This document shows, piece after piece, positions 5,862-49,988 of a stretch of DNA of 64,000 nt (the stretch's first letter is position 1; each line of letters opens with the position of its first letter). Under the pieces are notes generated by a model, which was not told the origin of the DNA, did no database searches, and saw only the letters and a program-made list of their open reading frames with translations. The translations under genes were made by a program, and so were the position numbers. This DNA comes from Apostichopus japonicus (lineage: Eukaryota > Echinodermata > Holothuroidea > Aspidochirotida > Stichopodidae): the NCBI RefSeq assembly GCF_037975245.1, contig NC_092569.1, forward strand, positions 18,719,001-18,783,000, read 5' to 3'.

Positions 5862-5904
5862 TGACTAGTGTGCTTATACGTCACAGAAAATAATCGTATA
5901 AAGT

Positions 5905-17798: not shown

Positions 17799-20700
17799 GT
17801 AATGTTTACCCTCGTTAATTAATAACAAATGTCTAAAATATCATCAAAACTGATATTAACTTCAATCGTGGTGTTCCGTCGAACATAGTCATTGAATCAT
17901 TCCCAACCGTTAACACCAAATGCTTAATATTTTTGATAAAGCACATGTTTGCATGTAAATTATACGCAAGATTTGCCTTGTTCTTGTGTCATTAGATATC
18001 TTTAGTTTAAAAGCAACTATTCTAATGATATTTTAACTCTTTTGTACATTTAACTTACAAATGTAGTTTGAAGTCAATTCAAAGTTCTGTGTATCAATTG
18101 CAGGAGGGAGAGGAATACATTGCTCCCAATTGTCAGAGCAGATGTTCCTGTAGTAATGGTCAGTTAGATTGCGATGACAGCTATCAGTGCCACCCTAACG
18201 CAATCTGTGAAGAAAGAGATGATCTCTTGCAGTGTTACTGTAATGCAGGTTACACGGGAAACGGTTTGTTATGTACAAGCCTAGTACCACCGTCAGACTG
18301 CTAAGAAATATACGAAAATAACGAGAGAGATAATGGTATTTACCGAATCAAGCCAACCACTTGGACTGGTTCGCCTTTCGACGTTTACTGTAACATGACA
18401 GATGAAGGAGGTTGGACAGTAAGGGGCAGCCTGTTGTTTTTAATTTGAGTTGTAAATAACGCATAATCATTGCCTGAAGATTGGTTACAGCTTTACTGTG
18501 GTATTCAAGAATTCATGGGAGGTCTAGTAACTTGTAGTTCACGTTCGGCAATGAGGAGAGAGAGCCTGTCAGGTGTTGTCACAATTCTGACCAAGCTTGG
18601 AAATCTCAATTACGTTTTGTTCGTATTACAGGTTTTCAAACGTCATATTGACGGATCTCAAGATTTCTTCCTATACTGGGATGATTACAAGCAAGGTTTC
18701 GGTAATCTTACCAACAACTTCTGGTTAGGCAATGACAAGATACACAGCTTCACGAACCAACGACGTTATCAACTGAGAGTAGATTTAGTAAATAGCAACG
18801 GGGTGCCTTATTTTGCTAAATACGACTTTTTTTCGCATCAACGACGAAAATGACAACTACAGACTCCAACTTGGTAGTTATCGGTCCGAAAGCAATGCAG
18901 GTAAGTCTGAAAGATACGCAGTGCTATTCAGGGATATTAAAGTAGCACATGAGGTAAATGTTCAAAGGGCAACAGTGACAATTGCTAGTTGTAAACATCA
19001 AATTTGTATATAGTTGTTGAAGCTGACATAATTGTTTCAGATGAACCTTTCTCCTGGAAATATAGTGTAGTCAATAATTAACTGCATCTGTACTCTATTG
19101 TCATAATGACGATGTTATTCAATAGGTTTCTTTTCATTTTTATGTAGTTGTCGACTTGACTTGACATTAAAATGTGATACATTTAAATGAACCAGTAGCT
19201 CTCTTTATATTTAAATACAGTGATTTAACCATATGCAAACTTTCCTGTACGTTTTCGCAATTCCATGAACCAAACAAATTATGCAAATCAGTTTACCATG
19301 AATGCTTTAGCCATGAAACAGTTAACGGTGTTTACTATGGCTAACATTTCTCCGTGGTTTTCAGAAATGTTAAGAATACAAAGTTAATGCGTCTTGCCCC
19401 TATTAGATAAATACAAAGCATTTTATGATAAACTGTCAATACCGTTACACCTTCATACTCGGAACAAATCTGAACACGTCTGATCCAGAAAGAGAGAGTT
19501 TAGGCAAACTTGGAAGTATAAGTTTATTAAGCTTGTTTACATAGTAGCTAATGGTTATGTTCTTGTTTAGGAAAAATAAGTCATAATACGGAAGGAAGTT
19601 ATTATGATAAAGATTGTTATACGACCAAACGGAAACGACAGGATTTGTAAGTGCGCCAAATGCAGCATTTGTTTGAACAGAGATCAAGTGTATTCACAAG
19701 ATATATTTGCCAAATCAACAACATATCTATTCACGCTGGGAAAATTATTCCAAAAGGAACAAAGATTAACGTCTTTATTACAGTTTAATGCAATTCTAAA
19801 GCGAATTATATATTTACACTTTCCACTTCCAAAGGCTTTTATAAATGTACATGTTAAAGAAAGACGTTACTTTTCCGCAAACAATACTAGAACATATATG
19901 TTTGATGGAGCACAATGCATTTAGAAAGGGACCATTACAAATTAGATATCACAACACCGGCCCATACCGTAAGCCCGCATATCATCACTCAACAGAAAAT
20001 AAATATTAATGATATTATAATATAGAATTATTGTGTATAAAATCAAATGATTATATATGGAAGGAACGGAACATCGACAAGTAGTTCAAACATTCACCAT
20101 TTGAAAATATTTCAAATGCTAACTGACGGCTTGTGATAGCAAAACTTAGCTGACTTTGTTTCCGGTACTCACCCACCCACCCCCTGTCTCACAATTACAC
20201 ACACTGCAAATGGAATTCAATTATACTCTAGGAGAAATCAATCCGCAACGTGTTTGTATAACAACCGCCCGAACAAACCCCCTCCCCCCACACACCCCTC
20301 CTACTCCCTAAGTCAGAAAAGGTTACTAATATTCCGTTTCTAACAAATTTAACCACTCCGCTGTTCTTGGTTTTCACATTACGGATTTTACTGTCAAAAA
20401 GTCCAAATTTCCCTAACATCTAACATAAGGTACGTATAAAATGTGAGCTAACGTTATTGTATCACCTCTATTTGCTACAGGAGACAGTCTCACGTATCAT
20501 CACAACCAACAATTCACCACACGTGACCGTGACAACGATGCTTGGTCTAGCAACTGTGCAAAGGATTATGGTTGTTATTATTATTATTACTATTGTAACG
20601 GTGCATGGTGGTACAATTATTGTGCTTACTCCTCTCTCAACTCACCATATGGACAGAACAGTTTCTATTGGTATCATCTTCCTTCCGGTAATAATAACAT

Positions 20701-22485
20701 CAAATTTTCCGAGATGAAACTACTTCCGGTATGATGGCTAACCTGCTTATATTTCACAGAACATAACCGTATAACTTAATAACGATCGTCGACGAAACAC
20801 TTTTTCTTTGCTGCTAATGTTTGACAAAAGCAGCAAGAATTTGCTATAATAAGATTAACATAGTATTTATCTGAAGGATGACTGTTCTACTGGTCGTAAG
20901 AAGATACAAATAATTCATTTTGAAGATGAGCTTTAAGGTAAAGAATCAAATTAATATTGTAGGCATATTTAACTTAACGGTATTTAGTTACATACTGAAA
21001 TTTCAATTAAACTAGATAATAAATGTAGTTGTACGTGCAAGTATAATTTAAGATTCTCTGTTTTAAATTAACTAATTTTATTCTGTTTGTCGGTAAGAAA
21101 CTATGATTGCTTTATGCAGCTTAAATGACATTGAGAGGCATTACGGCTACATTAGTTGATTATCAACAAATTACCATACTATATGCCTAGTCTTCTGCGT
21201 AGTGAATTTTACGCATTAGTAATAAAGAATACAATACTCTGTTTGAATTATTGTTAACACTTTTTAAGTTAACTTCTTCACGGAATACTTCAATATGGCA
21301 CTTTATGGTTTTGACCAATCGGTAACTGCTTTCCAATTTGTTTTTATACGTGCCTGTTTGTTTATACTACTGTTTTTATCATTTTTATCCTTGTGTTGCT
21401 TTATGATGGACCGTAAGAGTGACCTAAACATAAAACTATGAATAAAGAAGAAATTTCTTAATCAAACTTTGTGTTTTCGTTTCATTTTAATAAATTTGTG
21501 GAGTTTCACACTGCAGTAATGCGAGCAGTTAAAACTCAATGGAATAGAAATAAACCACAGAATCTGGCAAAAATGGCAAATCTTGACCAGCTTATTAATA
21601 ATTAGTATTATAGTAAAATATAAGTAATCGGTAGTAAGTATTTAATGTTTAACCAAATTTCGTATAGAATAGTTTGAACGGGATGGGAGTGTCGGCACCT
21701 CTAACTCAACTATCTCACCATAGATCACATATTAATCAAAATATCACTTAAGCGTGTTGAAGCGATCTGAACAGAGGCGATTGTTGTTGACACAAAGACA
21801 TCCAAAGACATAATCATACTGAAAACATCCCAATGTGAAGTGAGATTATCGTCGATATTCAAACTGATTAAGACAATTAAACTGTCCCAGCCCCGTACGT
21901 TGAACTATCTACATTGCCACGATACCCTTTACAACATATTACCCAAGATGGAGCCTAGGCACAGAATCAACGCAGTTGAATGAATCAATACTCTCAGTTC
22001 CAGCAGTACCCCCCCCCCCCCAATTTCGGAAACAAAATGGTACATTCTGAGGCATAACTAGACCGCTGTTATAAACAGGTCTCTAATTTGGTAAAAACAC
22101 ACGGTTAAGTCGCTAACTAATTTTGAAATTTCGTCGCCGTTGAAAAAGTAGTCTACACCCTCGCATCCTGACATGTATTTGGAACACACTTTTTCATGAT
22201 CATGAGAATCTTTTTAGACGGTAACTGGTAATGTATTGTGACATCTTTTATAGAGACGACATGTCTGCTGATAACACATTGTGACATTCTCGATTTCAGC
22301 TCTACAACTTTCCTTTTTGCTCTCCTACCTTAAGCTTTAATGAGTTTTGTGTCGGTCCTTAATGCTCAACTGATGGCCCGTAGTGGGTCTATTTTATTAT
22401 GACACTCAAACTATATACTATATATCAACATTCTTTAACTTGCAGACGAGCATGGGGAAGAAGAAAGACAGATACTTGCTGTAGT

Positions 22486-23826: not shown

Positions 23827-26800
23827 TCAGATAGGTCGAATTTTCATTTCTGTGAACATCAAGTTGTAGTGACCTCCAGGTAAATTATCCCACTCAATAC
23901 TATTATCATTTCCACTGGCGGCAAAGTAGTTCGAGTTAAGGTCAGAAGCATCGCAACCATTGTACCACCAAGCACTACGATGATTAACTGCACAGTTATA
24001 ACTACTATGACGGTCATTGTCACTGTTGTATGTAGTGAAGGACATATTCCTGTGATAAGCCATGGAATTATGGTCTGTAGAAAGAACAACATATACACAA
24101 ATGTGTAACAACATGCACAGTTGGAACGAGTTCTTTTTCACATGGGACTGTACACTGAATATCTATATGAGAATATAGCTAAACATAATTTCTTAAAACT
24201 AACTGATATGTGTTTTTTTTTTTTTTTTTTTTGTATTCAACCATATCAGGTTCTGAATTTTCTTTAAACGAGGGTTAGTATTCATGTTTTGTATATTTTG
24301 TTTCTCAAAACAGTCAATTTTGTTTAATTGTGAATAACTGTTTGAGTTCGCAAGGCGAGTTAATTGATTTCCATTCTTTTTTAGTATTTCACAAGAAATT
24401 ATAACCAGTGGTTTATTGGTGTAGTGTGCTTGCCTCTGTGTATTAATCTAATTCTCATAGGCAATTATGATGGTATGTAGTCATAAATGGCATTATCAAG
24501 CCTTTTGACGTTTGCCTATATTTCTCTCAAATAATATTGAAGGTAATGCATTTCATATTTGGTTACTTTAATGTTATCGGTCCTCATTTTGACATCTTTA
24601 TTTGTTATAAATATATAATTAATTATATTAATTAATTTATATATATATAATTACTATATTCGTATTTATTAAACATTACACTGAACTCGTTTTATGTCAT
24701 TTTTAATTCTCTCAACGTGTGTTCTTTATTCATTCAAGTGGTAACAAGGCAATTGGCTTCAAATATAGGTAATCACATTTATTTCTTCTAAACAAACCTA
24801 GCGGAGGAACGTATCAAAGTTTCAACACAGCCAAAAGTGACAGAAGTATAAATCAATTAGGCTATATATTTTAGTTCATAATTTTTAAGAACACTAAACC
24901 AAACTTTCAGTGAATTCACCATAACTACTCATATCGAGGTACCAATAATGATTATTAGTATTATTTATCAAAGTATCCAATTTATACTTTATAGTAACGT
25001 ATGTTAGCCGATTTTCTTTCTTTTTTTGCGTTTGACGTGAGTCTGTAGAGGTAGACGCACTCAATCCGAGAGATCAGGAATCGCACTTTTGTTGCCATGG
25101 TTTTCATTATTTGAGGCAAACAAAGGGATATCAATTTCGAGTCAGTTCCCTTTACAAATAAAGTATTTCTATGTATTTTAGATTTAATGTTAGAAAGTCA
25201 AACTACAGTTCGCTTTATTCTGCTGACGAATGGGAGGGACTTTTTCTGCTGTTATAGGCTTTAAATACATTCAGAGAGACTGATTTTCGTTCTGTAGTAT
25301 GTTTTCTTGTTCCTTAAACTCGCTACGTAGGAACAAGAAATATCTAAAAGATGATGCTCACAGGGGTTCTGAGACATAGAGTACTGTCATATATATATAT
25401 TTTTTTGTCGTACACTTTGCCGATCCCCTTCTTGTATTCCTTCGAAAAGTTACTCGGCAAATAACTAAAGTCTTTCTCAAAAAGGCTAGTCGGCCTTTTA
25501 AAAATGGTGAATGAACGCCTTTGACGACTAGCTAACATCTCTAAATAAATACTTCTGTTCAATAGGATAGCAATTTTATTGGGTTTCTTAACTAATGTAT
25601 AGGTTCCACGTAAGTTGCTATCATATTTAAACCTTGGAAAATTATAGTATCGTAATAGAAACATTAACCTTTGTGAGAGCAAAAGCAGAAAAACATGCAC
25701 TTAAACTTTGAAATAAACATTTTGAAAAAAAAACTGTTTCGATGATAAAGTCTATTTAAAAAAATTAAAAGGACAGAGAATGTAGAGGTTTTAGAAGATA
25801 GATACGTATATAGATGTATGTACTTACTTGCTGTACTTTCTGACAGATACCCTCCTAGATCTACCATTCTGTATTTACGCCACTCATCACTAATACGATG
25901 TAGAGGTAATGTAGAGGTAATGTAGAGGTAATGTAGAGGTAATGTAGATGTAATGTAGAGGTTCAAGAAGATAAAAATGTATGTACTTACTTGCTGTACT
26001 TTCTGGCAGATACCTTCCTAGATCTACCATTCTGTATTTACTCCACTCATCACTGATCCTAAATAGATCGTACTTGGCGAAGTAAGGAACGCCGTTCGCA
26101 TTATTCATGTCAATACGAAGTTCATAATCTTTCTGGTTTGTCAAGTCAGATATTTGATCGTTTCCAAGCCAGAACTCTCTCATTAGAAAGCCAAAACCTT
26201 GTTTGTACTCATTCCATGTCCGGTAGAAGTCAACAGATCCATCTACTCGTCGTTGGATTACCTGACATGAATGATAGAGGATACGCTATAGGTTTGCAAT
26301 AATTATGTGAAGTGCCTGTTACATAATATAACTATTAAAGTGACGTCAAAGGCGAGAGGATCTGTTAAATACTGAAGTATACAACAGTGTCTGGATATTT
26401 TTATACATTACTCATGATGACGGTTGCCAAAGTGACATTTATTTCCGGTGGTCAAAGAGGACACAAAATGTTGTTACACAAGTTGGTGAAACCCTCATTC
26501 CTACAGTCTGTTTTAAAGATAGGATTTTCTTAAGTTTGATGATACTTATCAATTATATTTTATTAATTATTTAAATTGTTTGATTCATTCATGCATTATT
26601 AATGTTATATATTATATACCTGAAAGATGCACAGCAAGTATAACGAAGTAATCATGAAAGCAATTAGCCAAACAGTTTGTTTACTTTTGACAGGAATAAA
26701 TATTATTTTGGAGCGAATACAATCAACATTAAGATTGTATCACACATCATGTTACAGGAATATGATTTGTTGATTTCAAGAACATACGTCATGGTTTAAT

Positions 26801-29800
26801 GTACCCACCACGCTATCAATACCATCATATAGATTGTATTGATTTTGTTTAATAGAGATGACATTATCATCTTGTAAGAACCATTTCACTTTTTGTACAT
26901 AAAGTAGCCGAACTGTTATATAAAGGAATCGAAATTGGGAATGTTTACAGGAATATATAATGAACATTTGATGAAGATGATAATGCAGTTACAAAGATCG
27001 TTTAATAGTTGACAAATGACAACACCCCATATCTCCGACTGAATATCTGCACTCGTTCTACTAGCTACATTCGTTTATTATTTAAATCCTCCAGTCAAAA
27101 CTTCATGAAGAATGCCCCTCCTCCCCCCTACCCCATCCCTTTCCCTTCAAACTCTATTTTGTTTTGAAAAATACACAATACTTACAGTCCAACCGCCACC
27201 ATCAATCGAGTTGTTACAAAAGACCATAAAAGGTTCAGGAGTATTATCTGGTTGAATCATAAAAACACCGGATTCTGTATTTTGATCGTCACATTGCTCG
27301 TAAACTTCTTGACAATCTCTGGGATACTGTGGTTCCTGGTAGTAGAAGTAGGATGAACCTGAAGATAAAGAAACATCTTAGCTTCAAGTTAAGTATGTAA
27401 GTGTTCAAACGTGACCTTGCGGAACTAATATTCAAAGCATTTAACAACATATTACAACTTTAAATTTCTAGTTGTGAAGAAGTAGCAGTCAAATGTAAGA
27501 TTTAAATCTTTAAAATAGAATTTATACTTTAAGATTGAAAGGGATGGTCTAGTTTAGACATTAAACAAGGTCAAAATAATCACAGTTAATTTCAAACTTG
27601 AAATGTTTTCCGTCATCACATGAAAATGGATGATATATACTCACTGCTTGTGTCTCTCCTTTGTCTCAATCGGGAATTATATTCTGTTTTCTCCGAACCG
27701 CCCTGAAAGAACATTTTTACGCTTGTATTACGCATTAATATTTCAAAGATTCCAAATATGAGTTAAAGTTTTAAATTGGAAGCCACCCGACCTGTTAATT
27801 GTAATCCATAAGCCCTTGTTTAGGTGTCGTAAAACAACTGCTGATTATTTTTATTATATTATTATAATTGACACTCTTAAAGTTATCAATGAAAATGACA
27901 TGACATTATTCATGTAGAGGAATTCACTTGTGGAATATTACTTTGCTTTGATCTATAGATAAAAATTTTATGGTAACCAAGTAAAAATAGAACAAAACGT
28001 AAGAATATTTCACAGTCTTTAATTGAATTAATGTGCCGTACAATATTTTTCGTCTAAAACTTGGTATTTTAGAAATCCTTAGATTGTATATTATTATACT
28101 ACTAGTAACAAGTTTTAATGGAGTCGCATTACTTTGGATTTTACCAAGTAAAAATAGAACAAAACGTAAGAATATTTCACAGTTTTTAATTGAATTAATG
28201 TGCCGTACAATATTTTTCGTCTAAAACTTGGTATTTTAGAAATCCTTAGATTGTATATTATTATACTACTAGTAACAAGTTTTAATGGAGTCGCATTACT
28301 TTGGACTTTACCTTTGTCAAAGGAAACATTACAAAACGTTTAAGGTTTTTTTTATTTTTTTATTTTTTTATTAATACTTTAAGCGGCCATTAAGTCTCGA
28401 TCAGAGTAGATATTTGATGATTTCTTTTTAGTTTAATTATTCTACGTTTTGGTTAATCTTTGATGTTTAGATTTAATAAACACGCCAGAAACTGACAAAC
28501 AAAATACTTTATTGCCCCTCTCTATGTGTCGTAACCAACTTCAAATTCAGCAGAAAACAAGAGACAAAAAAAAACTGCATTCAATGTAAATTGTGCAATT
28601 GGTAATATCTCTATGAATCGAACGATACATTTGCCACTGAAGTTTTATCAACTCGGTAACCTGATTGTAAGACACATCCGATGTCTAAAATATCCTCAAA
28701 CTTTAATTACACCACTCAAATTTTACTTAAAACAATACGTGCGTTCAATTATTTATGCAAAATGTTGACATTTTTTAGATTTAAGTTACCATTTCTGTAT
28801 GAGCTATTTTACGGTAGGCATGTAGTGCTTTACAATTACATTAACATTGATCAAATTACATAGTTTTGAGAAGTAATCACAAGTTTGTGATTAGCAAAAG
28901 AGTAATTGTAAATTACATCAGAATTACTGCGATGTGGTTATCAAAGTGTGTCAACACTGTTTAAATATTTTTGTTCACATCATATTTCATGGATTTGCTG
29001 AATCGTTTCAAGTTATATATTTCCAAAAGTATTCAATTTTTAATTTGTTGCAAAATATTTATTTTCGAGAATGCTCTAATTTGAAGGCGTTACTGCCTTA
29101 ATACTACTTTTATACCTTTTTATTTATTTATAGGCTGTAAAAAACCACCAACATTAGATAAAGGCGGGACTTATAACTGCACAGAACCACTCTGTGGTTT
29201 ATTGAGTGAAGGATGTTACAAATATTGAAGTTTTGTTTATGTCAATATGGACATAGATAAGTGGTTTACTATATATATAATATAACAAAATGTTATTTCA
29301 ACACAATTGTTAACTGATGCAATCACATATTAAATTTATTCTGTATTTGCAGTGTCTGAACTTGAAGTAATATGTTCATAAATGTAACAGAAAGTTACAT
29401 TCTCTTCTGAAACAAAATATGCAATGGGGTTTACGGTTTATGATGATAGCCTTTCCCGCAATAAAACGGTGGCATAATAAAACATTATTAAGAGTTATTG
29501 CTTGTGTCATCCAATTATCACAGTTTGGCTTAATTGTAAGGATGAATATTATGAAATGTACATTTTAACTAACGAACGACCATATTTTCAACACATATAC
29601 TCTCCACAAAGCAGAACATTCACTATGAAAAGAGATGGTTTGGATATGTGGGTAATCCTGTAAATGTTTTATTAGAGAGCGTTTATTTGTCTAATAACAA
29701 ATATTTTACAAACTGCTATTCGAGAGATGGTTGGTCATGATAAGTCATTTTCCAAAACTATCTTTAAATATTGTTTGAAAAGTTGAATGGTTTACACCAA

Positions 29801-30283
29801 CACTATAGGTTATATATGATTGAGTAATGCACAGTTACTGGGTTTCTTTCCAACATTAATGAACATGAATTGTCTTTGACAGAGAGCGAGACAAGTATTC
29901 TTGAGTTAAGAATTATGAAGTATTAAATTATATCGACGCTTGTCCTGATGGAATAAAGCCGCAGCAAGTTATGAATAGCCTAACTTAAAGATTGTGTGAT
30001 TATTATGAAACAAAAGCTAACGAAAGAAAAAAACATTCTTTTTTTAATTCAATGCATTCGATCATTTCAACATTTTAAAAGTTTGGAATAAGTTTTGGGT
30101 TTCAGTTCTGATATCATTTGTGTTAAAATGGTTGAACTCTGATAAAATAAAAGAAAGTAGTGTCTACTGTAATAACTGACCAGAAATGAAAATAAGGCTA
30201 CAACTCACCGATTTCAAAGAAGACAGAGAGCTGCCGAATTCAGACAGAAATCCAAAAACCAACAAAATAATCTTGATCTTCAT
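23827..30283 (-). CDS. FReD gene A: secreted single fibrinogen C-terminal domain protein
   Basis: Five coding exons on the minus strand, in order: 30283-30209, 27702-27645, 27358-27186, 26261-25991, 24074-23827, giving about 274 residues. Exon 1 is a signal peptide (MKIKIILLVFGFLSEFG). Exon 2 is a short basic linker (SRLRQRRD). Exons 3-5 form one full FBG domain: YPRDCQEVYEQC, DGGGWT, QRRVDGSVDFYRTW, FWLGNDQISDLT, NCAV, WWYNGCD, then MKIRPI and stop. All donors and acceptors are GT-AG and all phases match (0,1,0,1). An AATAAA signal lies 225 nt past the stop (23597-23602). The start was chosen at the signal-peptide methionine; an upstream in-frame methionine (ORF start at 30415) is unlikely because paralogs share the MKIKII start. 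Probably an extracellular recognition lectin; ligand unknown. Confidence 0.85.
25828..25975 (-). repeat. Partial exon 4 copy plus 12-bp minisatellite, intron 4 of gene A
   Basis: 25828-25899 repeats the last 70 or so bases of exon 4 (encoding ISDEWRKYRMVDLGGYL) with its GTAAGTA donor but without the 5' part or acceptor. It is joined to tandem TAGAGGTAATG-type 12-bp units up to the true exon. One partial copy is present in A, three in B, two in C. Confidence 0.75.
27977..28310. repeat. 167-bp tandem duplication in intron 1 of gene A
   Basis: 27977-28143 and 28144-28310 are nearly identical, both starting ACCAAGTAAAAATAG. Genes B and C have one copy each, so the event is recent and private to A. 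Confidence 0.85.
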
Positions 30284-32656
30284 GTTGAGCAATACAGGTG
30301 AACAAATCGTCGAGATTAAGACTGATAGCACTTCACAGCAGGAGAACGAACGCAAGAATGAATTCAAAGCCAATCTGACATTCTCGATATCACTAAATTG
30401 TCTTACTTGAAACAAAGGAGATTGATGACGTAGTCGTTCTATTCAATTGTAAGGATGCTGTGACGCATCTGTTTCAATTTTAAGGAAGTATTGCAAAAAT
30501 AGTTCAATACCATTGAAAGAACTTATCTTGATGTTTTGACTAATCGAAATTACAGTTGCAAAATTTATTAGCGTCTCATATTGAACGCCATACAAGGATA
30601 TACAATATTTATGTTTAGATCATAGTAAATGTGTAATATTCAGTTAAGTGATCAGATAATGAGATCAGATTATGAAGACCGATAAGCGAAAGTAATTAAT
30701 ATGCTACTGCTGTTTCAAACAATAACTGGCAGATATATAATTTAAAAAATTAACGTTGAACATAACACAAGAAGTTACTTTTAAAACAAGTAAATCTAGA
30801 CTCGGGCAACAATATATTTTAAAGAAGATTAATGTAATCAAGCAGATCAGAATGATTTTATTTGTTTCATGTTAAAAAATTTCTTTTACAGGAATCATTT
30901 TATCACTTACAGGAATCTGCCAAACTAATAAAACCACATTGATGACTCGTTTGACTCGTTTTGACTCTTTGACAAGAATCTGACATGAAGGTTAAATATA
31001 GAAAATGTCAAACCAGATAAAATAATTAATTATATGCTTATTCAACTCGATCAAATGATGGTCGAGCGTTAATGTTATTAATATGAACCTTAAAAAATCT
31101 CTAGGATTGTCAATTTACCCAATCTTTGAGCCACAGTTAGACAAACATAGTTAGCAAAGATCTTTACCTTACGGATGATTCAACCAGAAATGTAACATTT
31201 GGGATATTTTTGTATAGCCATAGACGATTGTGTTGCTTCATATAGGCTACCTCAGAATTGCAATGTACACGCGTGCATCGCATTGCTTTAGTGTTATACC
31301 AATGAATATATGAATGGAACAATCAGGTCACTTGATGCGGTTTTAGAAGGGCAAAGTAGCTCAACGCCTGCAGACTATAGTTGTCTGATTTGTGGATGAA
31401 CGTTACATTAGAATTGTGACATTTGCCCAAAATATATATATTACTTACACCACCTCATTAGTTGAATTAGCTTAATGTCCATGGATAAATTAAGCAAGTT
31501 TTTTTTGCTTCGTATATATCTAATAGATGTCACGTGACAATACATTTTATAGCCCTGCTGCAAGAATGCGCCGAAAGTTGTTTGTATTGTTATATGACGT
31601 AGGCCTACACTTGAAAAGAATGGCACAGCAATCCTTTCTTAGTGAGATAAAGGTATCGAAGTATTTCGAAGAAACATGTTTCCCAATGGTGTGTAAATGT
31701 ACAGGTCATATCTAATAACTGAATAACTCAACCAGAACTGTAACATTTATGATCGTTTTACCGCCATGGACAATTGTGTTGCTTCATGTATCTCAGATTT
31801 CAAGGTACACGCGTGCATCGCATTGCTTCAGTGTTACGTCAGTGAATATATGAATCAGCCAGTTTACTAGGTTACTAGGTTACTACATGCGGTTTAAGAA
31901 GTAGCTCAACTGCTGTAGACTGTCTGATTTGAGAATGAACGTTGAATTGTAACATTTGTTCTAAATGTTGTAAGTGACCTTTGCAAGTAGTGAAAGTTAT
32001 ATAATTGCTGAGTGTCTTCCTACATAAGTTATTTTTGTGTGTCAAAATAGTGAAAGTTGTCACGTGACAACATAGGGTGAGATGTTTCAATTGGTCGGTC
32101 GATCTGTTTAACTGTTGTTCCATCTTTATCGACACAGTATACGGCACACGATACACAGCTGTTTCTTGCAATCTAGGCAAGGGCTTAGTCATTGGTACAA
32201 TTCGCCACGAATGTTCGGCTCCTACGTATCGATTCCGTGTGTATTAATCAGAACGCTATGAATGATACATGACCATAAAATATCGGAACATATAGTTACA
32301 GTACACGGTAAAATCATTTAGGAGAGAAGTGGTGTACTAAGCCATTGCAAAGTCTTTTATACACAATCGCAGAAATTCTTTCCTGCAAGTGTAAAATAAG
32401 TCTCTTCTTAAAATCTTTCCAAGTGCATAATATATTACACATCATGCGACACTAGGTCAAATTATTAACAAATTGTAAACGCAATAACTGTGGAGCTTGG
32501 ACGAACTTCATTTCTTGAATATAGTTCTACCTTAAGTATTGCTGCGCAACATCGTACACATAAATCATGTCACTTGCTGCTATTGTCTGCTGTTAGTGGT
32601 TGTGACAAGTGTCTGCTCTTCATGGCTGCTAGCTTCAAACCAATTTGAAGTTTACA

Positions 32657-32734
32657 ATGGAAGAGTCAAGCTTAAGTTTAGTAAATTCATACTCAATGCA
32701 AGCTATCGGTAAAAGATCCTTATGGATGGGAAGT
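32657..32734 (+). pseudogene. Orphan duplicate of TRNAU1AP exon 1 in block A, intact
   Basis: A 78-nt copy of the first coding exon of TRNAU1AP, open from its ATG to the same GTAAGA donor, ending QAIGKRSLWMGS. It differs from the real exon by two serine-to-leucine changes (residues 6 and 8). Flanking DNA on both sides also matches the TRNAU1AP 5' region (59.2-60.8 kb), up to about 33528. No copy of exon 2 follows it locally. It is on the same strand as TRNAU1AP, so it could serve as a distant alternative first exon, or it may be inert. Confidence 0.8.
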
Positions 32735-34122
32735 GTAAGAACTTTTTTTTTCTTTTTGCGCTGCTGTTATAGTTACGTACGCTTCGTACTCTGATCTGTA
32801 CGGCCGGTTGAACCTGGCATATGGTTGGTTTAAATGTATTAGACTAAGTTATATACAACATCGAGTATGCATGAAATTACATTGGGACCATTTCCGCGAC
32901 AAAGAAATGTACATGCCTAGTTTACAAAATTGTAGTCTGGCATCCATTTACCGGAATTAAAACCATGCAACAAGTTGGCAAAATGGTGCATTTTGACGTT
33001 TTCTTGGTTTTGAACATACAACTATGCAATCATTGTTAGTCTAGCGGAATTTGACCATAGCAACGGTTAAATCATGCCATTGAAAGATAATAAAAGAGAA
33101 AAATCAAAGGGATTGGTAAGGATACCAATTATCACTGAAGTTTAAGAGCTAACATAAATCTCCTAATGACTTCATCATGTTTTTGGTATTTACTGATGAA
33201 TGCAGAATGGTAATTATAAACACGACAGTTATACTGTATTTTGGTGTCAGTCTCTACAGACAGTGGTATTTGTCGTTGGCCAGTATGTCTAGATAGTTGC
33301 TACTGCCCCTAGTGTATCCAATATGTAACTGTTTGAGTGTCGCCCTTGTATATCTAGGGATATGCTAGTGATAGCAGCTGATGTATACGTAGAACATTGT
33401 ATCTCAAACTCTAGTATTGATACATACTGTACTGTTGGCCTAGAGCATTGTTTTAATCATACGAGATCAATAAATTTGCATAAAGTAACCCTCATGACTA
33501 CTGTTAATGAATGACTAATGAGACAAGATTCACCTTAATGAAAAAGTGTCTTCCAAATACAGGTCAAGATCCAGAAGATGCGAGGGTGTACACTACTTTT
33601 TCAACTACACCGTAATTTCTAATAAAAGTAGCAACTTCACCATGGTTTTTACCAAAACAGGAACCGAATAATAGCAAGGGTATAATTGTGCCTCACAATG
33701 TACAATTAAGTTCTGGGGAGGGGGCTAGTACTGCAGGAGCTGAAAGTGTCAATGTAGTGAAGATGCGTTGATTCCGTGCCAAGATTTCATCTTGGGTAAT
33801 TTGTTGTTGTTAAGGGAACCGTTACGATGTTAGGAACTAGGACAGTTTAAGTTTGTTGATTGAGAGGTGCGAGGACGTTCGCTTTCTCGTTCAAACCATT
33901 GTTAGACTAAAAGAAATTTGGTTTAACAATAAATACTAATCACCAATCACTTATATTTTATCATCATAATTAACGTAATAATTTCTGATATTGCCGATCT
34001 TCACTTTTTGCGTGCCTGCCTGCTTAGCTTTATTTGCTACGTACACGGTATGTAAGGTATTGTGGTACTTCCACCGTAGAATTCTTAGAGCTAAATGTAG
34101 GGATCGACTCCGTCTAAGGGTT

Positions 34123-34210
34123 GTATAGCACAATTGATAGAGTACATGCAAGACTTGGAGGCCCAAGTTTGAATCCTGTTTGAGCTAATAATTTATGTGC
34201 TCTCTGTGTG
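34123..34210 (+). mobile_element. tRNA-derived SINE-like element, second copy
   Basis: Same family as the element near 8918: TAGCACAATTGATAGAGTAC (A-box), then AAGTTTGAATCC (good B-box) and a related tail. It sits at the join between blocks A and B. Confidence 0.5.
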
Positions 34211-35142
34211 TTTATACATTCTAGTCCAAAGACTTTTCCATCTACAAATGAAGTGAAGCAGAAGCTATAGCTTTTAATTCACTGTTTTGTTTTTTACCAT
34301 TCCAAATTTTGCTATTTCCTTTTCATCTTATTTTTGTTTATTTCAAAATGATAGTGGTATATAGATACATGGGAAAGACACAACCGTATTTACTTTCTTG
34401 TCGCTAAGATGTTTTTAGCAGTTCCTTTCGCTCTTATTAAATTAATAAAACGTTTTATGCTTTCTGTACAAGTTCATTGTTCTTTGAAGTGGAACATATT
34501 GTTTTAGTCTGCTGATTTGCCTTCCTTTACTGATATTTGTTACAAAACAACCAGCTTCACACATTAAATGTTAACTTGAGGGACTGTAAGAAGCTATACA
34601 GGGGCAGCTATAGGGGCAGCTATACGGGGACAGCTATGAACTAGTTGTCACGTGGGGCCTCTGCAGCTATATTTTCGTGTCACTCGATACCAACCGGAGC
34701 TTTCATCTCCCAACAAAAGAAAAAAATGATATGTTATGATATATATTACGTTTTGTCTACTTTCCTCTTTGTTTTTTGTTTTTTTGGAGGGTGTTAAGTA
34801 GCACATTCCACTGCGATGCGTCACTCTCTGAGAGAAATTAAATTTAAGCTTTAAGCAATACAAGTAAACAACAAGAAAGAAACAACAAGTCGAATAATGT
34901 TAATCACATGAATCTTTATTTCAACTGAATGTATATCAATCACCATTATAATACAATCACTAGTTTCTTTTCAGCGTTGCATTTATCATGATATTTCATG
35001 TTAATTCATATTTTTTTGAGGTAAGTGTTTTTGTTTTCAGGCGTTGCTGCTTCACCTCTATGTTTTCTGCCTCATAAAAACAGTATGTTTAATGTACTTT
35101 GACGTTCTTGATATGATATTACGGCAAGACTCACTATAGATA

Positions 35143-38100
35143 TCAGATAGGTCGAATTTTCATTTCTGTGAACTTCAAGGTGAAAGAACCTCCAGGTAAA
35201 TTATCCCACTCAATACTAGCATCATTTCCACTTGCGGCATAGTAGTTCGAGTTAAGGTCAGAATGATCGCAACCGTTGTACCACCAAGCACTATGATTAG
35301 TAACGGCACAGTTGCTACTATAACGGTCATTGTCACTGTTGTATGTAGTAAAGGACATATTCCTGTGATAAGCCAGGGAATCATGGTCTGTGGAAAGGAT
35401 AGCATACATACATAAATGTGTAACAACATGCACAGTTGAAACGAGTTTCTTTTTCACATGGGACTGTACACTGAATATCTATAGGAGAGTATATCTAAAC
35501 ATTTTTTTAAACTAACTGATATGTGTTTTTTTGTTTTTTTAACAGCCATATCAGGTTCTGAATTTTCTTTGAACGAGGATTATTATACATGCTATGTATA
35601 TTTTTACTTCAAAACAGTCAATTTTGTTTTATTGTGAATAACTGTTTGAGTTCACAAGGCGAGACAAGATACGTCCAAAGTTAATTGATTTTCTTTTTTT
35701 TTTAGTATTTCACAAGAAATTATAACTAGTGCTTATTGGTGTAATGTGCTTGCATCTGTTTATCAATCTAATTCCCATAGGCAATTATGATGGTATGTAG
35801 TTATAAACGGCATTTATCAAGCCTTTTGACGTTTGCCTATTTTTATCTCAAATAATATTGAAGGTATCGCATTTCATATTTGGTTACTTTAATGTTATCG
35901 GTCCTCATTTTGAAATCTTTATTTGTTATTAATATATAATTAATTATATTAATTACTTTATATATAATTACTATATTCGTATTTATTAAACATTACACTG
36001 AACTCGTTTTATGTCATTGTTAATTCTCTCAACGTGTGTTCTTTATTCTTTAAAGTGGTAACGAAGCAAATGGCTTTCAAATATACGTAAACACATTTAT
36101 TTCTTCTAAAAAAAACTTGTGGAGGAGTGTATCAAATTTTCAACACAGCCAAAAGTGACAGCAGCATAAATCAATTAGGCTCTATATTTTAATTCATAAT
36201 TGTTAAGAACACTAACCAAACTTTCAGTCAATTCACCATATCTATAACCTTATTTCGAAGCACCTATAATTCATTATTAGTTTTATTAATCATAGTATCC
36301 AGTTTATACTTAATAGTAACGTATATTAGCCGATTCTGGGGGTATTTGATGTGTGTTTTTAGAGGTACACGCAATCAACCCGAGAGATCAGGAATCGCAC
36401 TTTGGTTGCCATGGTTTTCATCATTTGAAGCAAACAACGTGACTTAAACTTCGAGTCAGTTCCCTTTACAAATAAAGTTTGTCTATTTTGTTTTTTTAGA
36501 TTTAATGTTAGAAAGTCAAACTACAGTCCGTTGTATTCTGCTGACGAATGGGAGGGACGTCTCCTGTTGTTATAGGGCTTTTAAATACATTCAGAGAAAC
36601 TGAATCCCGCTCTATCGTATGTCTTCTTGTACCTTAAACTCGCTACTTAAGAACAAGAATTATCTAAAAGATGCTGCTCACATGGGCTTTGAGATATAGA
36701 GTAAATAAACTTACTGTCATGCATATTTTTTACTGTACACTTTGCCAATCCCCTTCTTGTATTCCTTCAAAAAGTTACTCGGCAAATAACTAACTGTCTC
36801 GAGAAAGCTAGTCGGTCTTTTAAATATGGTGAATGAACGTCTTTGACGACGGCCCACACGTTAAGATTACATTTTATACGAGAATGAATGCACTAGCTTA
36901 CGTCTCTGAATAAACACTTCTGTTCAATAGGATAGCAATTTTATTAGGTTTCTTGACTAATGTATACGTTCCATGTAAGTTGTTATCATATTTAAACCAT
37001 GGAGAATTATAGTATCTTAATAAAAGCAACAACCTTTGTGAGAGCAAAAGCAGAAAAGAGCATGCTATTTAACTTTGAAGTAAAAATTTGGAGGAAAAAA
37101 TGTTTCGATGATAAAGTCTGTTTTAAAGAATTGCAAATGTAATAGGACAGAGAAAGTAGAGGTTCTAGAAGGTAGATATGTTTGTACTTACTTCCTGTAC
37201 TTTCTGGCAGATACCCTCGTAGATCTACCATTCCGTATTTACGCCACTCATCACTAATACGGTGTAGAAGTAATGTGGAGGTAATGTACAGTTAAAGTAG
37301 ATGTAATGTAGAGGTTCTAGAAGATAGAAATGTATGTACTTACTTTCTGTACTTTCTGGCAGATACCCTCCTAGATCAACCATACCGTATTTACTCCACT
37401 CATCACTTATACGATGTAGAAGTAATGTAGAGGTAACGTAGAGGTAATGTAGAGGTATTGTAGAGGTATTGTAGAGGTAATGTAGAGGTTCAGGAAGATA
37501 GAAATGTATGTACTTATACTTGCTGTATTTCTGGCAGTTACCCTCCTAGATCTATGATTCCGTATTTACGGTAGAGGTAATGTAGAGGTAATGTAGAGGC
37601 AATGTAGATGTAATGTAGAGGTTCTAGAAGATAAAAAGTATGTACTTACGTGCTGTACTTTCTGGCAGATACCTTCCTAGATCTACCATTCTGTATTTAC
37701 TCCACTCATCACTGATACGAAATAGATCGTACTTGGCAAAGTAAGGAACGCCGTTAACATTATTCATGTCAATACGAAGTTCGTAATCTTTCTGGTTTGT
37801 CAAGTCAGATATTTGATCATTTCCAAGCCAGAACTCTCTCTTTAGAAAGCCAAAGCCTTGTTTGTACTCATTCCATGTCCGGTAGAAGTCAACAGATCCA
37901 TCTACTCGTCGTTGGATTACCTGACATGAATTATAGAGGAGAACGTTATAGGTAGTCTGCAATAATTATGTGAAGTGGCTAATATCAGTAACATAATATA
38001 ACTATTAAAGTGATGTCACAAGCGAGAGGATTTGTTAAATACTGAGGTATACAACAGTGTCTAGATATTTAAATACATGATAACGGTTGCCAAAGTGAAA

Positions 38101-41100
38101 TTTATATTTGGTGGTCAAAGAGGACACAAAATGTTGTCACACAAGTTGGTGAGACCCTCATTCATACAGTATATTTTAAAGATAAGATTTTCTTAAGTTT
38201 GATGATACTTATGAATTATATATTAGTCATTATTATTAATTATTTAATTAATTAATTAGTAATTAATTATTAATTACAAACCTGAAAGACGTACAGCAAG
38301 TATAACGAAGTAATCATGAAAGCAATTAGCCAAACAAATCAGTTTCTTTACTTTTAATAGTAATAAATAATATTTTAGAGCGATTACAATCAACATTAAG
38401 ATTGTATCACACATCGTGTTACAGGAATGTGATTTGTTGTTTATTTCAAGAACATATGTCTTGGTGTCCTGTACCCACCGCGCTACCAATACCAACATAC
38501 AGATTTTATTGATTTTGTTTTGGAGCGAATACAATCAACATTAAGATGGTATCACACATCGTGTTACAGGAATATGATTTGTTGATGATTTCAAGAACAT
38601 ATGTCTTGGTGTCCTGTACCCACCGCGCTACCAATACCAACATATAGATATTATTGATTTTGTTTAATAGAGATGACATTGCCATCATGTAAAAACCGTT
38701 TCATTTTTTTACATAAAGTAGCCTACATGTTATGAAATTTAAAAGGATCGAAATTGGGAAAGATTACAGGAATATATAATGAAAATTTGATGACGATGAT
38801 AATGCAGTTACAACGATCGTTTAATAGTTGACGAATGACAACACCCCAGATTTCCGACTGCATCTCTGCACTCGTTCTACTAGCTACATTCGTTATTATT
38901 TAAATCCTCTAGTCAAAACTTCATGTAAAATGCCCCTCCTCTCCCCTATCTTATCCCTTTCCCTTCAAACTCTATTTCGCTTTGATAAATACAAAATACT
39001 TACAGTCCAACCGCCTCCATCAATCGAGTTGTTACAAAAGACCATAAAAGGTTCAGGAGAATTATCTGGTTGAATCATAAACACACTGGATTCTGTATCT
39101 TGGTCGCCGCATTGTTCGTAAACTTCTTGACAATCTCTGGGATACTGTGGTTCTTGGTAGTAGAAGTAAGATGAACCTGAAGATAAAAAGTAAGCGTCTT
39201 AGTATCAAGTAAAGTTTGTCATTCTTCAAACGTGACCTTGCGGAACTAATATTCAAAACATTAAACCGCATAATACAACTATAAATCACTAGTTGTGAAA
39301 AAGTAGCAAGCAAATGTAAGATTTCAATCTCTTAAATATACTTTTCGCTTTAAAATTGGAAGGGATGGTCTAGATGAGACATTATAACACGTACAAGGTC
39401 AAAATAATCAGTTAATTTCAAACTTTAAAAGGTTTTCCGTCACCACACGAAAAGGGATGATATATACTCACTGCTTGTGTCTCTCCTTTGTCTCAATCGG
39501 GAATTATATTCTGTTTTCTCCGAACCGCCCTGAAAGAACAGTATTACGCTTGTTTTACGCATTAATATTTCAAAAGATTCCAAATTTGAGTTAAACTGTT
39601 AAATTGGAAGCTACCCGACCTGTAAGTTGTAATCCATAAGCCCTTGCGAGTTTCTCCCACATTTGTGATCGCTAAGGCGTCGTAAAAATAACTGCTGATT
39701 ATTATTATTATATTATTATAAATGAAACTTTTAAAATTATTAATCAAAATGACATGACATTATTCATGTAGGGCAATTCACTTGTGGAATAGTACTTTGC
39801 TTTGCTATAGATAAAAATGTTATGGTAACCAAGTTAAAATAATAACAAAATGTAAGATTATTTCACAGTTTTCAAATGAATTAATGTCCCGGACAATAAT
39901 TTTGGTGTAAAAGTTGGTATTTTAGAAATCGTTAGATTGTTTATTATACAACTACTAACAATTTATAATTACTCCCATGGAGTCGCATTACTTTGGACTC
40001 TACTTTTCACAAAGGAAACATTACAAAACGTTAAAGGTTTTGTTCATAAATAATACTTTTAAGCTGCCATTAAGTCTCGAACGGAATAGATATATTTGAT
40101 GATTTCTTAGTTTGATTATTCTATGTTTTGGTCAATCTTCGATGTATAGATTTACTAAACACGTCAGAAACTGACAAACAAAAATACTTTATTGCACCGC
40201 TCTGTGTATCGTAACCAACTTTAAATTCAGCGGGAAACAAGAGACAATAAAAGTCTGCATTCAGTGTAAATTGTACAATTGGTAATATCTTTATGCATAG
40301 AACGTTACATTTGACAAGTTATCAACTCCGTAACCTGATTGTAAGACACGTCCGATGTCTGACATATTCTCGAAATTTAATTAGACCACTCAAATTTTAC
40401 TTTTAACAACACGTTTGTTCAATACTTTATGCAAAATGTTGACATTTTTTTAGAATTAAGTATACCATTCTGATTATTCTGTATGAGCTATTTTACGGTA
40501 GACTTATAGTGCTTTGCAATTCCCTGGTGGAAATTCCAGTTGAAATTTTGAACTGGGTTCAACTGGAATTTTCTATACGGAAATTGGCCCAAATTTGAAC
40601 TAGGTTGAAATGGGTAAACTGGGTCCAACTGGTTCAACTATGTTTTACTGGGTCCAACTGGTTCAAGTTCAACTATGTTTTACTGGGTCCAACTGGTTCA
40701 ACTATGTTTTACTGGGTCCAACTGGTTCAACTATGTTTTACTGGGTCCAACTGGTTCAACTATGTTTTACTGGGTCAACTATGTTTTACTGGGTCCAACT
40801 GGTTCAACTTTATTTTACTGGGTCAACTATGTTTTACTGGGTTCAACTGGGTCAACTATGTTTTGCTGGGTTAAACTGGGTGAACTATGTTTTACTGCTT
40901 TTATTTTTAAATAGTTTAAACTGGGATTCTCAACTGGTGTTATCTACACAATATAACACCACACTATAAGAAGTTTTCATTATTTTTACAGTAGATCTAT
41001 ACTGTATGTGTTAGGGTGTTAGCCACTGAAAATAAATGTTTGTTCTTGATCAGAGAACTCTGGATTTGGTGTGATGACCAAATACAGAGCAAGACACATA

Positions 41101-44100
41101 AAAAAATGGAGAACTCAACTGGATTGGATCAAAAGAAATTATAATTATGAAAAACAAACAAAGTACAGTTGATCTTGGATCAGTCAAAGAATTAAATGAA
41201 ATAACTTACAGTGGTGAGGTGCGCACCCAAAATATAAAGAAATACACTTAATTTAAAAGTATGTTCTGGTGATTTGGCCTGCTGGTGATATCAAGTATTC
41301 TACGACCTCAGATCTTCCACGACATCAGATCTACAACCTCAGTATAGTTGATCCCCAATAAATGGTATGTCCGATCCCAACAAAATACAGTAGTATCCTT
41401 TAATTTATATGAAATATTGTCCAGGGTATCCTTTCAGTAAAATAATGTCAATATCCTTTGTACATAGTAAAATAATGTCCTTTATAAGTGATGGTGTCCC
41501 AGAATATCCTTTATGTAAAATAATATCCTTTATAGTAAAAAGTATCCTTTAAAATAAATAGTGTCCCAGACTATCATTGAGTATCACAAATTCCATAAAA
41601 TAATAAGGTCTACAGTAACTTGAACTATGTAAATTAAGGTTTAAAACAAACTATCTAGATATTAAACTATCTTTCTCTTCTTTTACAACTGCCTTGCTCA
41701 GATACTCATAGCCAACTGCCTAACTACCTATACCCTCACAAAACTCCTTTGTTCCTAAAATATATACACACAGACCCCATTTCCTGTGAGGGAATTATTT
41801 CGAGGAAGAACAAGATAGTTGCCTAGCAACCCAGAAGAGAGAAAATTGTTAATCAACCCCTTTGCTGACACACGACAACATACAAATATACTGTACAAAT
41901 GTTTAACCCTCTGTACAGTGAACACTGCACTAATAAACAAGTAAAACTATGGTACCAAACAAAACTTTATGTAAGAGCTGACCATCTTACACTGCACTAA
42001 TGAAGCCTCACTTAAAATTAGATTGATATTTTAATCATATGTTCATAATGTTCAGTGTAGGGCATCCTCACATTTGTAGCATATACGTGTATGCTGTATA
42101 CTTCACTAATGACTTTTGCAAAGTATGTTATTATGCCAATAGGACACTTCATGTTTGAAACAACAATCAAGGCAATTGCGTTAATTTTGAAATATCTGTG
42201 AGCTTCTTTTGTTTGTGACACCTTAAGAAGTTGCCATTATGTTCGCTAGTTGACAATAGCTTTCCTAAAATCATGCGGCTAAATATAGTGTTAACTTGAG
42301 TATAACTACTGTAGGTTAGGCCCTTATAAAGTATAAGCTAGTCAACTAAAACGTTAGAATATGTCTAACGTTAGTAAATGTACCATGTAGTATACCTAGT
42401 AGGGAACCGGTTTGTTAGGCCTAGCCTATACTATAGTCCTAGGCCACTATATACAAAGTTTCTGTTCAATTCAAATATTTATGATAAAGAGCACGTTTAT
42501 AATCAATTATAACGTTACAAGTATGTAACAATAATATAAAGATACTGCAAGATCACAAAGGAGGGAACTTAGCCGCGGTAATTATTTGAAATTGTTGGCA
42601 AAATCGGTTACAAATGCAATTCTGCGAAGCTTCTGTTGGCGTTTGTGGTTTGCGGATTCGGAATTTATAAATTTAGCCCAACGCAAGACAAATGTCAAAG
42701 TTCAAATTTAGTCGGATCATACTATTTAGCACTAGGAAGGCATTTTGCCTACCAATTGTTCAAATCGCCGAACAAAGTATAAACATAATTTTTTCAAATT
42801 TATTATATAGTAAATATTTCATATCTTTAATCATTGCGGTACAAAAGTTTAATCGTTTAATCATAACTGTGATAAATATGACAAAGATTTATTTTACACC
42901 CCTCATAAGTTGGCTAGTTTAGCATTTTCAATATATTACGATACGGTTACTGCTTACGAACTTACATTTGATTATTACGCCAAAAATAAAAGCAGTCAAC
43001 ATAGTCCAGACCCAGTTGAGCCAGTGTGAAACCTAGTTCAACCCCAACAGGGAAAGTTCACCAGTAAACATAGTTCAAACCCAGTTGGGCTTGTGCAAAC
43101 CAGTGAAACCTAGTTAAATCCCAGCTGGGTCAGTTCACCAGCCAACAGTCCAAACCTAGTTGGGCCAGTGCAAAACCAATGAAACCTAGTTCAACCCCAA
43201 CAGGGCAAGTTCACCAGTCAACATAGTTCAAACCCAGTTGGGCTAGTGCAAAAACCAGTGAAACCTAGTTGAAGCCCAACTGGATCAGTTCAAACATAGT
43301 TCAAATTCAGTTTGGCCTGAACAAACCCAGTTGAACATTGTGTAAACCCAGCTGAACCTAGCTCATGTACAGCATAGCCCAGTTGGAACCCAGTTAAACA
43401 CAGTTAAAAACCAGTTAAACATAGTAGGCCCTAGTAGAACCTAGTTGATTTTTTTAACTGGGTTCTACTGGAATTTCTACCAGGGTTACATTAAGATTGA
43501 TCAAATAACAGAGTTTTGAGAAGTATTTACAAGTTTGTATTAACAAAAGAGTGTTTTTAAGTTACTTTAGAATTACTGCGATGTGGTTATCAAAGTGTGT
43601 CAATACTGTTAAAATTGTTTATTTAACATCATATTTCATGGATTTGTTGAATCGTTTCAAGAAATATATTTCCAAAATTATTCAAAATTTAATTTGTTGC
43701 AAAATATTTTCTTTCAAGAATGCCCTAATTTAGAGGGGCAAATGTCTAAATACTTCTTTTATCTTTTGATTTATTTTGTATATTTTCCTTACACAATTAT
43801 TTGGCCTGTAAAACACCACCAACAATAGATAAACGCATGACTTTTAACTGTACGGAAGGACGATTTATTTAGGTCGACATGGACATAGATAAGTGGTTTA
43901 CCATATATATTGTGTATAATGTTATTATGAAAATGTTATTTCAACACAATTGTAAACTATGGTAATCACATATTAAACTTATTATGTGTTTGCAGTGTCT
44001 GAACTTGAATTAATATGTTCATAAAGGTAACAGAAAGTTACATTCTCTTCTGAAACAAAATATGCAATTGTGTTTACGGTTTATGATGATAGCCTGCTAT

Positions 44101-45437
44101 TCGAGAGATGGTTGGTTCTGATTAAAAAAAATCCAAACTATCTTTGAATATTGTTTGAAAAGTTGAATGGTTTACATAAACACTATAGGTTTTATATGAT
44201 TGAGTAATACACAGTTACTTGGTGTCTTTCTAACATTAATAAACATGAATTGTTTTAGACAGAGAGCGAGACAAGTATGCTTGAATTAAAAATTCTGAAG
44301 TATTAAAGTAACTTGTCCTGGTGAAATAAAGCCGCAGTAAGTTATGAATAGCTTCACTTAAAGATTGTGTGATTATTATTAAACGAAAGCAAACGAAAGA
44401 AATAAAACATTGTTTGGTTATTTCAATGCATTCAATCATTTCAACATTTAAAAAGTTTCTTTTATCTTTTCATTTATTAAACTTATTCTGTATTTGCAGT
44501 GTCTGAACTTGAATTAATATGTTCATAAAGGTAACAGAAAGTTACATTCTCTTCTAAAACAAAATATGCGATGGAATTTACGGTTTATGATGATAGCCTT
44601 TCCCGCAATAAAATGGTGGCATAATAATACATTATTAAGAGTTTTTGCTTAAAATATATAGCATAAAAGCTCTCTTATGTCATCAAATTATCACAATTTG
44701 GCTTAATTGTAAGGATACATATTATAGAATGTACATTTTAATGAACAAACGATCACATTTGCTACACATATACCATTCACAAAGCAGAACATTCACTATG
44801 GAAATTTTCCAGCGATGGTTTGGATGTTTGGGTAATTGTGTATATGTTTTATTAGAGAGAGTTGATTTGTCGAACCGTACAAATATTTCAAAAACTGCTA
44901 TTCGAGAAGATAGGTTTTTTCAAACTATCTTTGAATATTGTTTGAAAAGTTGAATGGTTTACACAAACACTATAGGTTTTATATGATTGAGTAATGCACA
45001 GTTACTGGGTTTCTTTCCAACATTAATAAACATGAATTGTTTTAGACAGAGAGCGAGACAAGTATGCTTGAATTACAAATTATGTAGTATTAAAGTAACT
45101 TGTCCAGGTGAAATAAAGCCGCAGTGAGTTTTTAATAGCTTCACGTAAAGATTGTGTGATTATTATCAAACGAAAGCAAACGAAAGAAAAAAACATTGTT
45201 TTGTTAATTCAATGCATTTGATCATTTCAACATTTAAAAAGTTTGAAGTAAATTTGGGGTTTCAATTCTGATTTGTGTTAAATGGTTGAACTCTGATAAA
45301 ATAAAAGAAAGTAGTGTCTACTGTTATAACTGACCAGAAATGAAAAGAATGGTAAAACTCACCGATTTCAAAGAAGACAGAGAGCTGCCGAATTCAGACA
45401 GAAATCCAAAAGCGAACAAAATAATCTTGATCTTCAT
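35143..45437 (-). CDS. FReD gene B: secreted single fibrinogen C-terminal domain protein
   Basis: Paralog of gene A with the same five exons: 45437-45363, 39529-39472, 39176-39004, 37920-37650, 35387-35143, about 273 residues. Signal peptide MKIKIILFAFGFLSEFG. The FBG domain keeps YPRDCQEVYEQC, GGGWT, FWLGNDQISDLT, WWYNGCD and the MKIRPI terminus. No stop, frameshift or lost splice site was seen in the coding exons. Intron 1 is about 5.8 kb, against about 2.5 kb in A and C, because it contains a 2.96-kb transposon (40522-43485) and a local duplication. Intron 4 contains three partial copies of the end of exon 4. AATAAA on the minus strand lies at 34915-34920. Likely the most intact member of the group together with A. 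Confidence 0.85.
37192..37640 (-). repeat. Three partial exon 4 copies plus minisatellite, intron 4 of gene B
   Basis: Partial copies at about 37192-37263, 37345-37415 and 37520-37570 (the last shortened) repeat the 3' edge of exon 4. They are separated by arrays of a 12-bp unit (GTAGAGGTAAT core). At least the first two keep donor-like sequence next to the GKSTA-type codons; the third is disrupted. Confidence 0.75.
38373..38660. repeat. 144-bp tandem duplication in intron 3 of gene B
   Basis: Two adjacent copies share GGAGCG/TAGAGCG starts and the phrase GTCTTGGTGTCCTGTACCC. Gene A has a single copy near 26700-26850. Confidence 0.75.
40522..43485. mobile_element. Non-autonomous DNA transposon, 2.96 kb, in intron 1 of gene B
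   Basis: Ends are inverted: left CCCTGGTGGAAATTCCAGT, right complement CCCTGGTAGAAATTCCAGT. Genes A and C show the empty site (CAATTACATTAAC, CAATTGCATTAAC), which defines both ends; TT is duplicated at the insertion. Inside each end lies a degenerate minisatellite: 40606-40920 (30-bp units built on GGTCCAACTGG) and 43000-43440 in the opposite sense (CCAGTTG, CCTAGTT). The centre is AT-rich with a repeated TATCCTTTA motif (41390-41570). No transposase was recognised. The long open frames over the left array are an effect of its period being a multiple of three. Confidence 0.8.
43980..45270. repeat. Local partial duplication in intron 1 of gene B
   Basis: The stretch from GTATTTGCAGTGTCTG... 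near 43990 through the GAGTAATRCACAGTTAC phrase to about 44460 recurs at about 44490-45270. Genes A and C have a single copy (29350-30080, 54320-55160). Confidence 0.65.
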
Positions 45438-47174: not shown

Positions 47175-47236
47175 ATAAAAGAGTCAACCTCAGGTTCAGT
47201 AACTTCATCCTCAATGCAAGCTATCGGTAAAAGATA
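47175..47236 (+). pseudogene. Orphan duplicate of TRNAU1AP exon 1 in block B, decayed
   Basis: Second duplicate of the same exon. The start codon is ATA instead of ATG, and about 21 bases covering the SLWMGS codons and the donor are deleted, so the SMQAIGKR codons run straight into AC-AAGAAC. Flanks match the other two copies. It cannot act as a coding exon in its present form. Confidence 0.75.

Positions 47237-49927: not shown

Positions 49928-49988
<61 letters not shown>

Follow-up and report, generated by a model that had tools for sequence, protein, structure and literature searches.

Can a first exon that has been copied far upstream of its gene still open that gene's transcripts? The question is raised by a 64,000-base window of the Apostichopus japonicus genome (C9:18719001-18783000; positions below are those of the window), for which a preliminary description had claimed an intact copy of exon 1 of TRNAU1AP at 32657-32734 and its possible use as an alternative first exon. 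Read directly, the anatomy of this copy (copy A, plus strand) agrees with the first part of that claim: its 78 bases comprise an ATG and 26 open codons with a phase-0 end, and they are followed at 32735-32740 by a splice donor, GTAAGA (AGT/GTAAGA), with the same letters as the donor of the real exon 1. In an ungapped alignment with the real exon (copy C, 59785-59862, plus strand), 76 of 78 bases were identical, and the remaining two were C-to-T changes (TCA to TTA at codons 6 and 8) that account for the two Ser-to-Leu differences described earlier; Ser6Leu and Ser8Leu both sit in a serine-rich tail, ahead of the part that aligns with PDB entry 2div (from residue 20). Both copies lie on the plus strand, as had been stated, with 27,128 bases from ATG to ATG, and a transcript from A would need to remove an intron of 28,180 bases (32735-60914) to reach exon 2. 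The structural requirements of an alternative first exon (start codon, open frame, matching phase and donor) were thus all found in copy A.

The parent gene was identified as TRNAU1AP (SECp43) by an RRM most like that of SECp43 together with a Trnau1ap C-terminal domain: its joined first exons gave 2div, tRNA selenocysteine associated protein, as the best PDB match (E = 5e-18), and an exon ~4.5 kb beyond the window matched PF17654 (E = 4.8e-11). The real exon 1 was placed by sequence, genome search and this PDB match; exon 2 (60915-61012, plus strand), the acceptor partner for any A transcript, had its edges set by eye, and the real intron 1 between them is 1,052 bases long. Across the genome searched (671,581,487 bases in 35 contigs), exons 2 to 5 were found at one location each, and protein search located exon 1 at copies A and C (the real locus), and DNA search at A, B and C. 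A 301-base DNA query around copy A returned six matches from this genome: A itself, copy B (E = 2e-76), two pieces of copy C (E = 2e-72), and two of 59-69 bases on other contigs (C11 and C5) that do not contain exon 1. The likeness of copy A to exon 1 is far beyond chance. The stretch just before the copy A ATG (32581-32639) belongs to a degenerate TGCTGTTATTGTC-type repeat; C11 and C5 carry copies of it too, and each occurrence is followed by CTTCAAA. No paper turned up in a full-text literature search combining TRNAU1AP with sea cucumber.

How the copies relate to one another was directly visible in a self-comparison of the window, which revealed three colinear blocks of roughly 10-14 kb each, at ~23.1-33.5 (A), 34.4-48.0 (B) and 48.5-60.8 kb (C). 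In every block, a single fibrinogen-domain (FReD) gene on the minus strand stands head-to-head with a TRNAU1AP 5' end, which in blocks A and B is cut within intron 1; the earlier statement that exon 1 was duplicated together with an immune-type gene family therefore holds, with three FReD plus exon-1 blocks seen. The FReD genes span 23827-30283 in unit A (stop codon at 23827-23829), 35143-45437 in unit B and 48861-55364 in unit C, each running from a signal-peptide exon whose ATG lies at 30283, 45437 and 55364, respectively. Three unit-A exons matched Fibrinogen_C (PF00147), and corresponding peptides exist in units B and C; the signal-peptide exon is presumed to belong to the FReD gene on account of its position, its open frame and, in A and B, its donor. 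Head-to-head, the signal-peptide exon is separated from exon 1 or its copy by 2.4 (A), 1.7 (B) and 4.4 kb (C). In unit C, the signal-peptide exon (55290-55364, minus strand) is followed by TTTGAG where units A and B have GGTGAG, with its donor GT, and the unit C FReD gene, which is nearest TRNAU1AP, may have lost normal signal-peptide splicing.

Several further features of the array and its surroundings were observed. Short tandem repeats copying the end of FReD exon 3 adjoin that exon at 25950-26050, 37150-37720 and 50990-51420; their peptide is like ISDEWSKYGMVDLGGYLPEST, and their copy number varies by unit. Between 37571-38345 in unit B and 51272-52049 in unit C, identity reaches 92.7%, the highest value among B/C pieces of more than 200 bases, whereas near exon 1 A and B are the closer pair; gene conversion among the FReD genes may be the cause. 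A second tandem gene pair lies on the plus strand at 70-7082 and 14690-21929; exons of the first matched EGF_3, TILa and Fibrinogen_C, and the second was recognized by similarity alone. A repeat of ~280 bases found at block edges (33527-33808, where it is inverted, 8459-8749 and 21931-22197) may have aided rearrangements, and an element present at 34085-34217 and 8879-9011, with tRNA-like A-box and B-box letters recognized by eye, is possibly SINE-like. Neither ARAGORN (bacterial code) nor Rfam (gathering thresholds) reported an RNA gene in the window.

The TRNAU1AP part of block A extends on both sides of exon 1, from a duplicated 5' flank (32113-32656, plus strand) to a duplicated 5' part of intron 1 (32741-33527, plus strand) that resembles 59869-60775; homology stops at 33527, equivalent to 60775, 140 bases short of exon 2. 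Copy A is thus a truncated, unprocessed duplicate, with intron sequence kept, a cut at the duplication edge and no downstream exons. Copy B (47175-47235, plus strand) is dead: its ATG has become ATA, and a 20-base deletion has taken 17 exon bases along with the GTA of the donor, so that the SLWMGS codons and the donor are gone. Disabling changes are present in copy B and none was found in copy A, and for this reason we call A a passenger duplicate and not a disabled pseudo-exon.

Does the intactness of copy A reflect selection? Taken at face value, two differences in 78 sites, against a pairwise divergence of 15.5%, would indicate constraint (P = 0.0002), yet this signal was mostly gone once changes were split among branches; raw A-C identity misleads because the real exon is itself constrained. 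Branch rates were counted directly in a three-way alignment of 1,268 flank sites, 26 of which have three different letters and were given to no branch, and 61 exon sites present in all three copies, which omits the 17 sites deleted from B (identical in A and C). Private flank changes numbered 48 on the A branch, 77 on the B branch and 155 on the C branch including the stem, placing A and B, in this part, nearer to each other than either is to C. In the exon, the C branch had 0 of 61 (P = 0.0004 one-sided, 0.0007 by Fisher's test), and the real exon 1 is constrained. The rate comparison with copy B that had been suggested was run and gave fewer changes in A (2/61) than in B (6/61, namely the ATA change and five more), but the A tip itself stands at the flank rate (48/1268). 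Exon 1 at the A tip has evolved at the pace of its surroundings, with no demonstrable constraint.

Over the whole A lineage, from the first duplication and with a clock-based stem, 2 changes in 78 sites were seen where ~5.8 were expected (P = 0.064). The value depends on how the lineage is drawn: it ranged from 0.046 to 0.090 with other tip choices and from 0.12 to 0.20 on the 61 sites common to all three copies, rose to 0.43 without the stem and fell to 0.0002 with the whole C branch taken as the A/B stem. This shortfall of changes is only suggestive. Copy B fits neutrality, with 5.9 changes expected and 6 seen. As a positive control, FReD coding sequence (edges taken from splice sites, with ~45 bases of the exon 3 end still counted as flank) was compared with flank in the same way and was slower on the B (17/713 versus 89/1925, P = 0.01) and C branches (36/713 versus 174/1925, P = 0.0006); on the A branch, unit-A coding had 23/713 versus 83/1925 (P = 0.22), in agreement with a version using rougher exon edges (23/743 versus 77/1848, P = 0.22). 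Since even FReD coding sequence was not significantly slower there, the constraint test has low power on the A branch.

Simulations of neutral change address the intactness of copy A from another side. With the A-tip rate, 43% of simulated neutral copies kept the ATG, frame and donor together; the whole-lineage rate gave 20-29%, and all simulation settings spanned 18-48%. Intactness is accordingly weak evidence for use, and one intact-looking copy out of two is unremarkable. A recent conversion of A by C was also considered as a source of the likeness and is not supported, as the A tip has changes in the exon (2/61) and in the 5' leader (3/77) about as frequently as in the flank (48/1268), although B exceeds A in private changes overall (77 against 48). 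An assembly error or haplotype duplication is unlikely, given that most aligned pieces of the blocks are 76-93% identical and only a few short ones exceed this.

The preliminary description had also supposed that copy A brought its promoter along, which holds only in part. The 5' flank was indeed copied (32113-32656), but two stretches at the real locus, of 416 (~58800-59215) and 354 bases (59354-59707), have no counterpart in it, nor in B, so that ~770 of the roughly 985 bases 5' of the real ATG are absent at A. Copy B retains 28 bases (46950-46977) identical to 59180-59207 in C, in the 3' part of the 416-base stretch, which points to loss of this stretch in A/B. Against simple loss, its first 89 bases (58798-58886) are 79-80% identical to upstream sequence at A (32204-32292) and B (46713-46801) and 84% identical over 55 bases to C 58558-58612, a likeness showing that part of the stretch arose by local duplication. 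The ancestor of A and B probably lost part of the upstream sequence, a direction judged by comparing the three copies. What remains of the upstream block (32113-32443) was slower than the intron on the C branch (26/329 versus 105/742, P = 0.003) but not on the A (12/329 versus 27/742) or B branches (16/329 versus 43/742).

These upstream rates bear on two alternatives that involve no full-length protein variant. The copied upstream sequence might still fire, producing a short transcript, either noncoding or with the 45-residue frame to which copy A leads if it is not spliced, that stops within the block or continues antisense across FReD genes B and C, whether or not this affects them. The 5'-proximal bases 32608-32656 are well kept between A and C and the read-through frame exists, as this would require, whereas the upstream block is unconstrained on A and B, and we consider it very unlikely that such a transcript is what copy A amounts to. 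Alternatively, the block might have been kept because its shared intergenic sequence is the promoter or enhancer of the FReD genes, with exon 1 carried inside. The head-to-head order in three of three blocks would fit, as would the 100 minus-strand bases 5' of the FReD ATG (30284-30383, 45438-45537 and 55365-55464), which have 0, 1 and 4 private changes in A, B and C and are kept about as well as the best-kept coding exons. In A and B, however, that leader is 1.7-2.4 kb away from exon 1, and the stretch closer to the exon (32113-32443) was not slower than the intron on either branch; we hold this account of the block to be highly improbable.

The interval that any A transcript must cross was surveyed as well. 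The claim that no other plus-strand gene intervenes is borne out in so far as none of 23 plus-strand stop-to-stop ORFs of at least 70 codons starting at 32735-59784 reached the Pfam curated cut-off, a scan that would miss genes with short exons or without a Pfam domain; the single subthreshold match, to Cuticle_1 (E = 0.0099), falls on a tandem repeat at 40618-40911. Such a transcript would cross two FReD genes and the real TRNAU1AP promoter, along with 48 AATAAA motifs on the plus strand. The motif count says little, because the real intron 1 itself contains 4, and the 42 on the other strand leave no clear excess. The intron to be removed is ~15 times the mean for A. japonicus if the last column of a published table with shifted headings is read as mean intron length (1,845 bases) and 22 times the mean given in the accompanying text (1,286 bases; PMC10344927).

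Together, these observations allow the original proposal to be weighed. A working alternative first exon would start near 32600, lose the 28.2-kb intron by splicing, and yield a TRNAU1AP protein with Leu6 and Leu8, perhaps under FReD-type regulation. The ATG, frame, phase, donor, strand and copied part of intron 1 are all as this would require, the shortfall of changes below the clock-based neutral expectation leans the same way (P about 0.06), and the same layout yields spliced transcripts in Arabis alpina PEP1 (PMC3527215), which makes the idea a reasonable one. Set against it are an A tip with no constraint, two changes that both alter the protein, an upstream sequence that is largely incomplete, and an intron far longer than the table mean (PMC10344927) whose transcript must pass two FReD genes, the plus-strand AATAAA motifs and the real promoter. 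We regard use of copy A as a first exon of TRNAU1AP as unlikely.

Copy A is most likely a passenger first-exon duplicate within a FReD tandem array, without demonstrable constraint. For the order of events, we infer two tandem duplications of a block in which a minus-strand FReD gene faced the 5' end of TRNAU1AP, from its upstream sequence through exon 1 into the first part of intron 1. Block C, on the right, would have retained the whole of TRNAU1AP, leaving A and B with a truncated 5' end that lacks the later exons; upstream sequence was probably lost in the ancestor of A and B, and B would later have lost its ATG and donor, with A spared by luck. We likewise infer that copy A is not used: its likeliest function is none, though it may give rise to low-level transcripts. 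If it were used, an immune-type tandem expansion would have handed a housekeeping neighbor a new promoter and N terminus, an early stage of a variable-first-exon locus. As it stands, copy A is a partial duplicate that looks functional by its motifs yet is here indistinguishable from a neutrally changing copy.

Truncated unprocessed (duplicated) pseudogene fragments occur at the edges of segmental duplications. Copy A resembles them in being a partial copy with intron sequence, cut at a breakpoint and changing at the flank rate, and differs in having acquired no disabling change. The closest parallel for a used copy is PEP1 of Arabis alpina, where a tandem duplication took in exon 1 with portions of the promoter and of intron 1 and left the copies 6.3 kb apart; each exon-1 copy is joined by splicing to a single shared exon 2, the two resulting forms having been cloned, and in one accession the copies differ nonsynonymously (PMC3527215). 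The sea cucumber locus shares the tandem copy of promoter part, exon 1 and intron 1 part with a common exon 2 downstream, but its copies lie 27 kb apart with two genes between them and are known from DNA, whereas the PEP1 forms were cloned. An array of first exons 5' of shared downstream exons also recalls UGT1 and the clustered protocadherins (PMC3325998, PMC1885805); those arrays are transcribed and have a promoter per exon, whereas here one of the two extra first exons is dead and the other no more than a candidate. That FReD expansion has given TRNAU1AP a far-upstream first exon of the PEP1 or UGT1 type, with a distal promoter inside the FReD array and following its regulation, appears to us quite improbable. 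The array itself recalls what has been described in the species: fibrinogen-related proteins (FREPs) of A. japonicus are reported as an expanded tandem family that is upregulated in visceral regeneration and includes a 21-gene cluster on Scaffold75 (PMC5638244), and the array described here shares with them the tandem duplication of fibrinogen-related genes.
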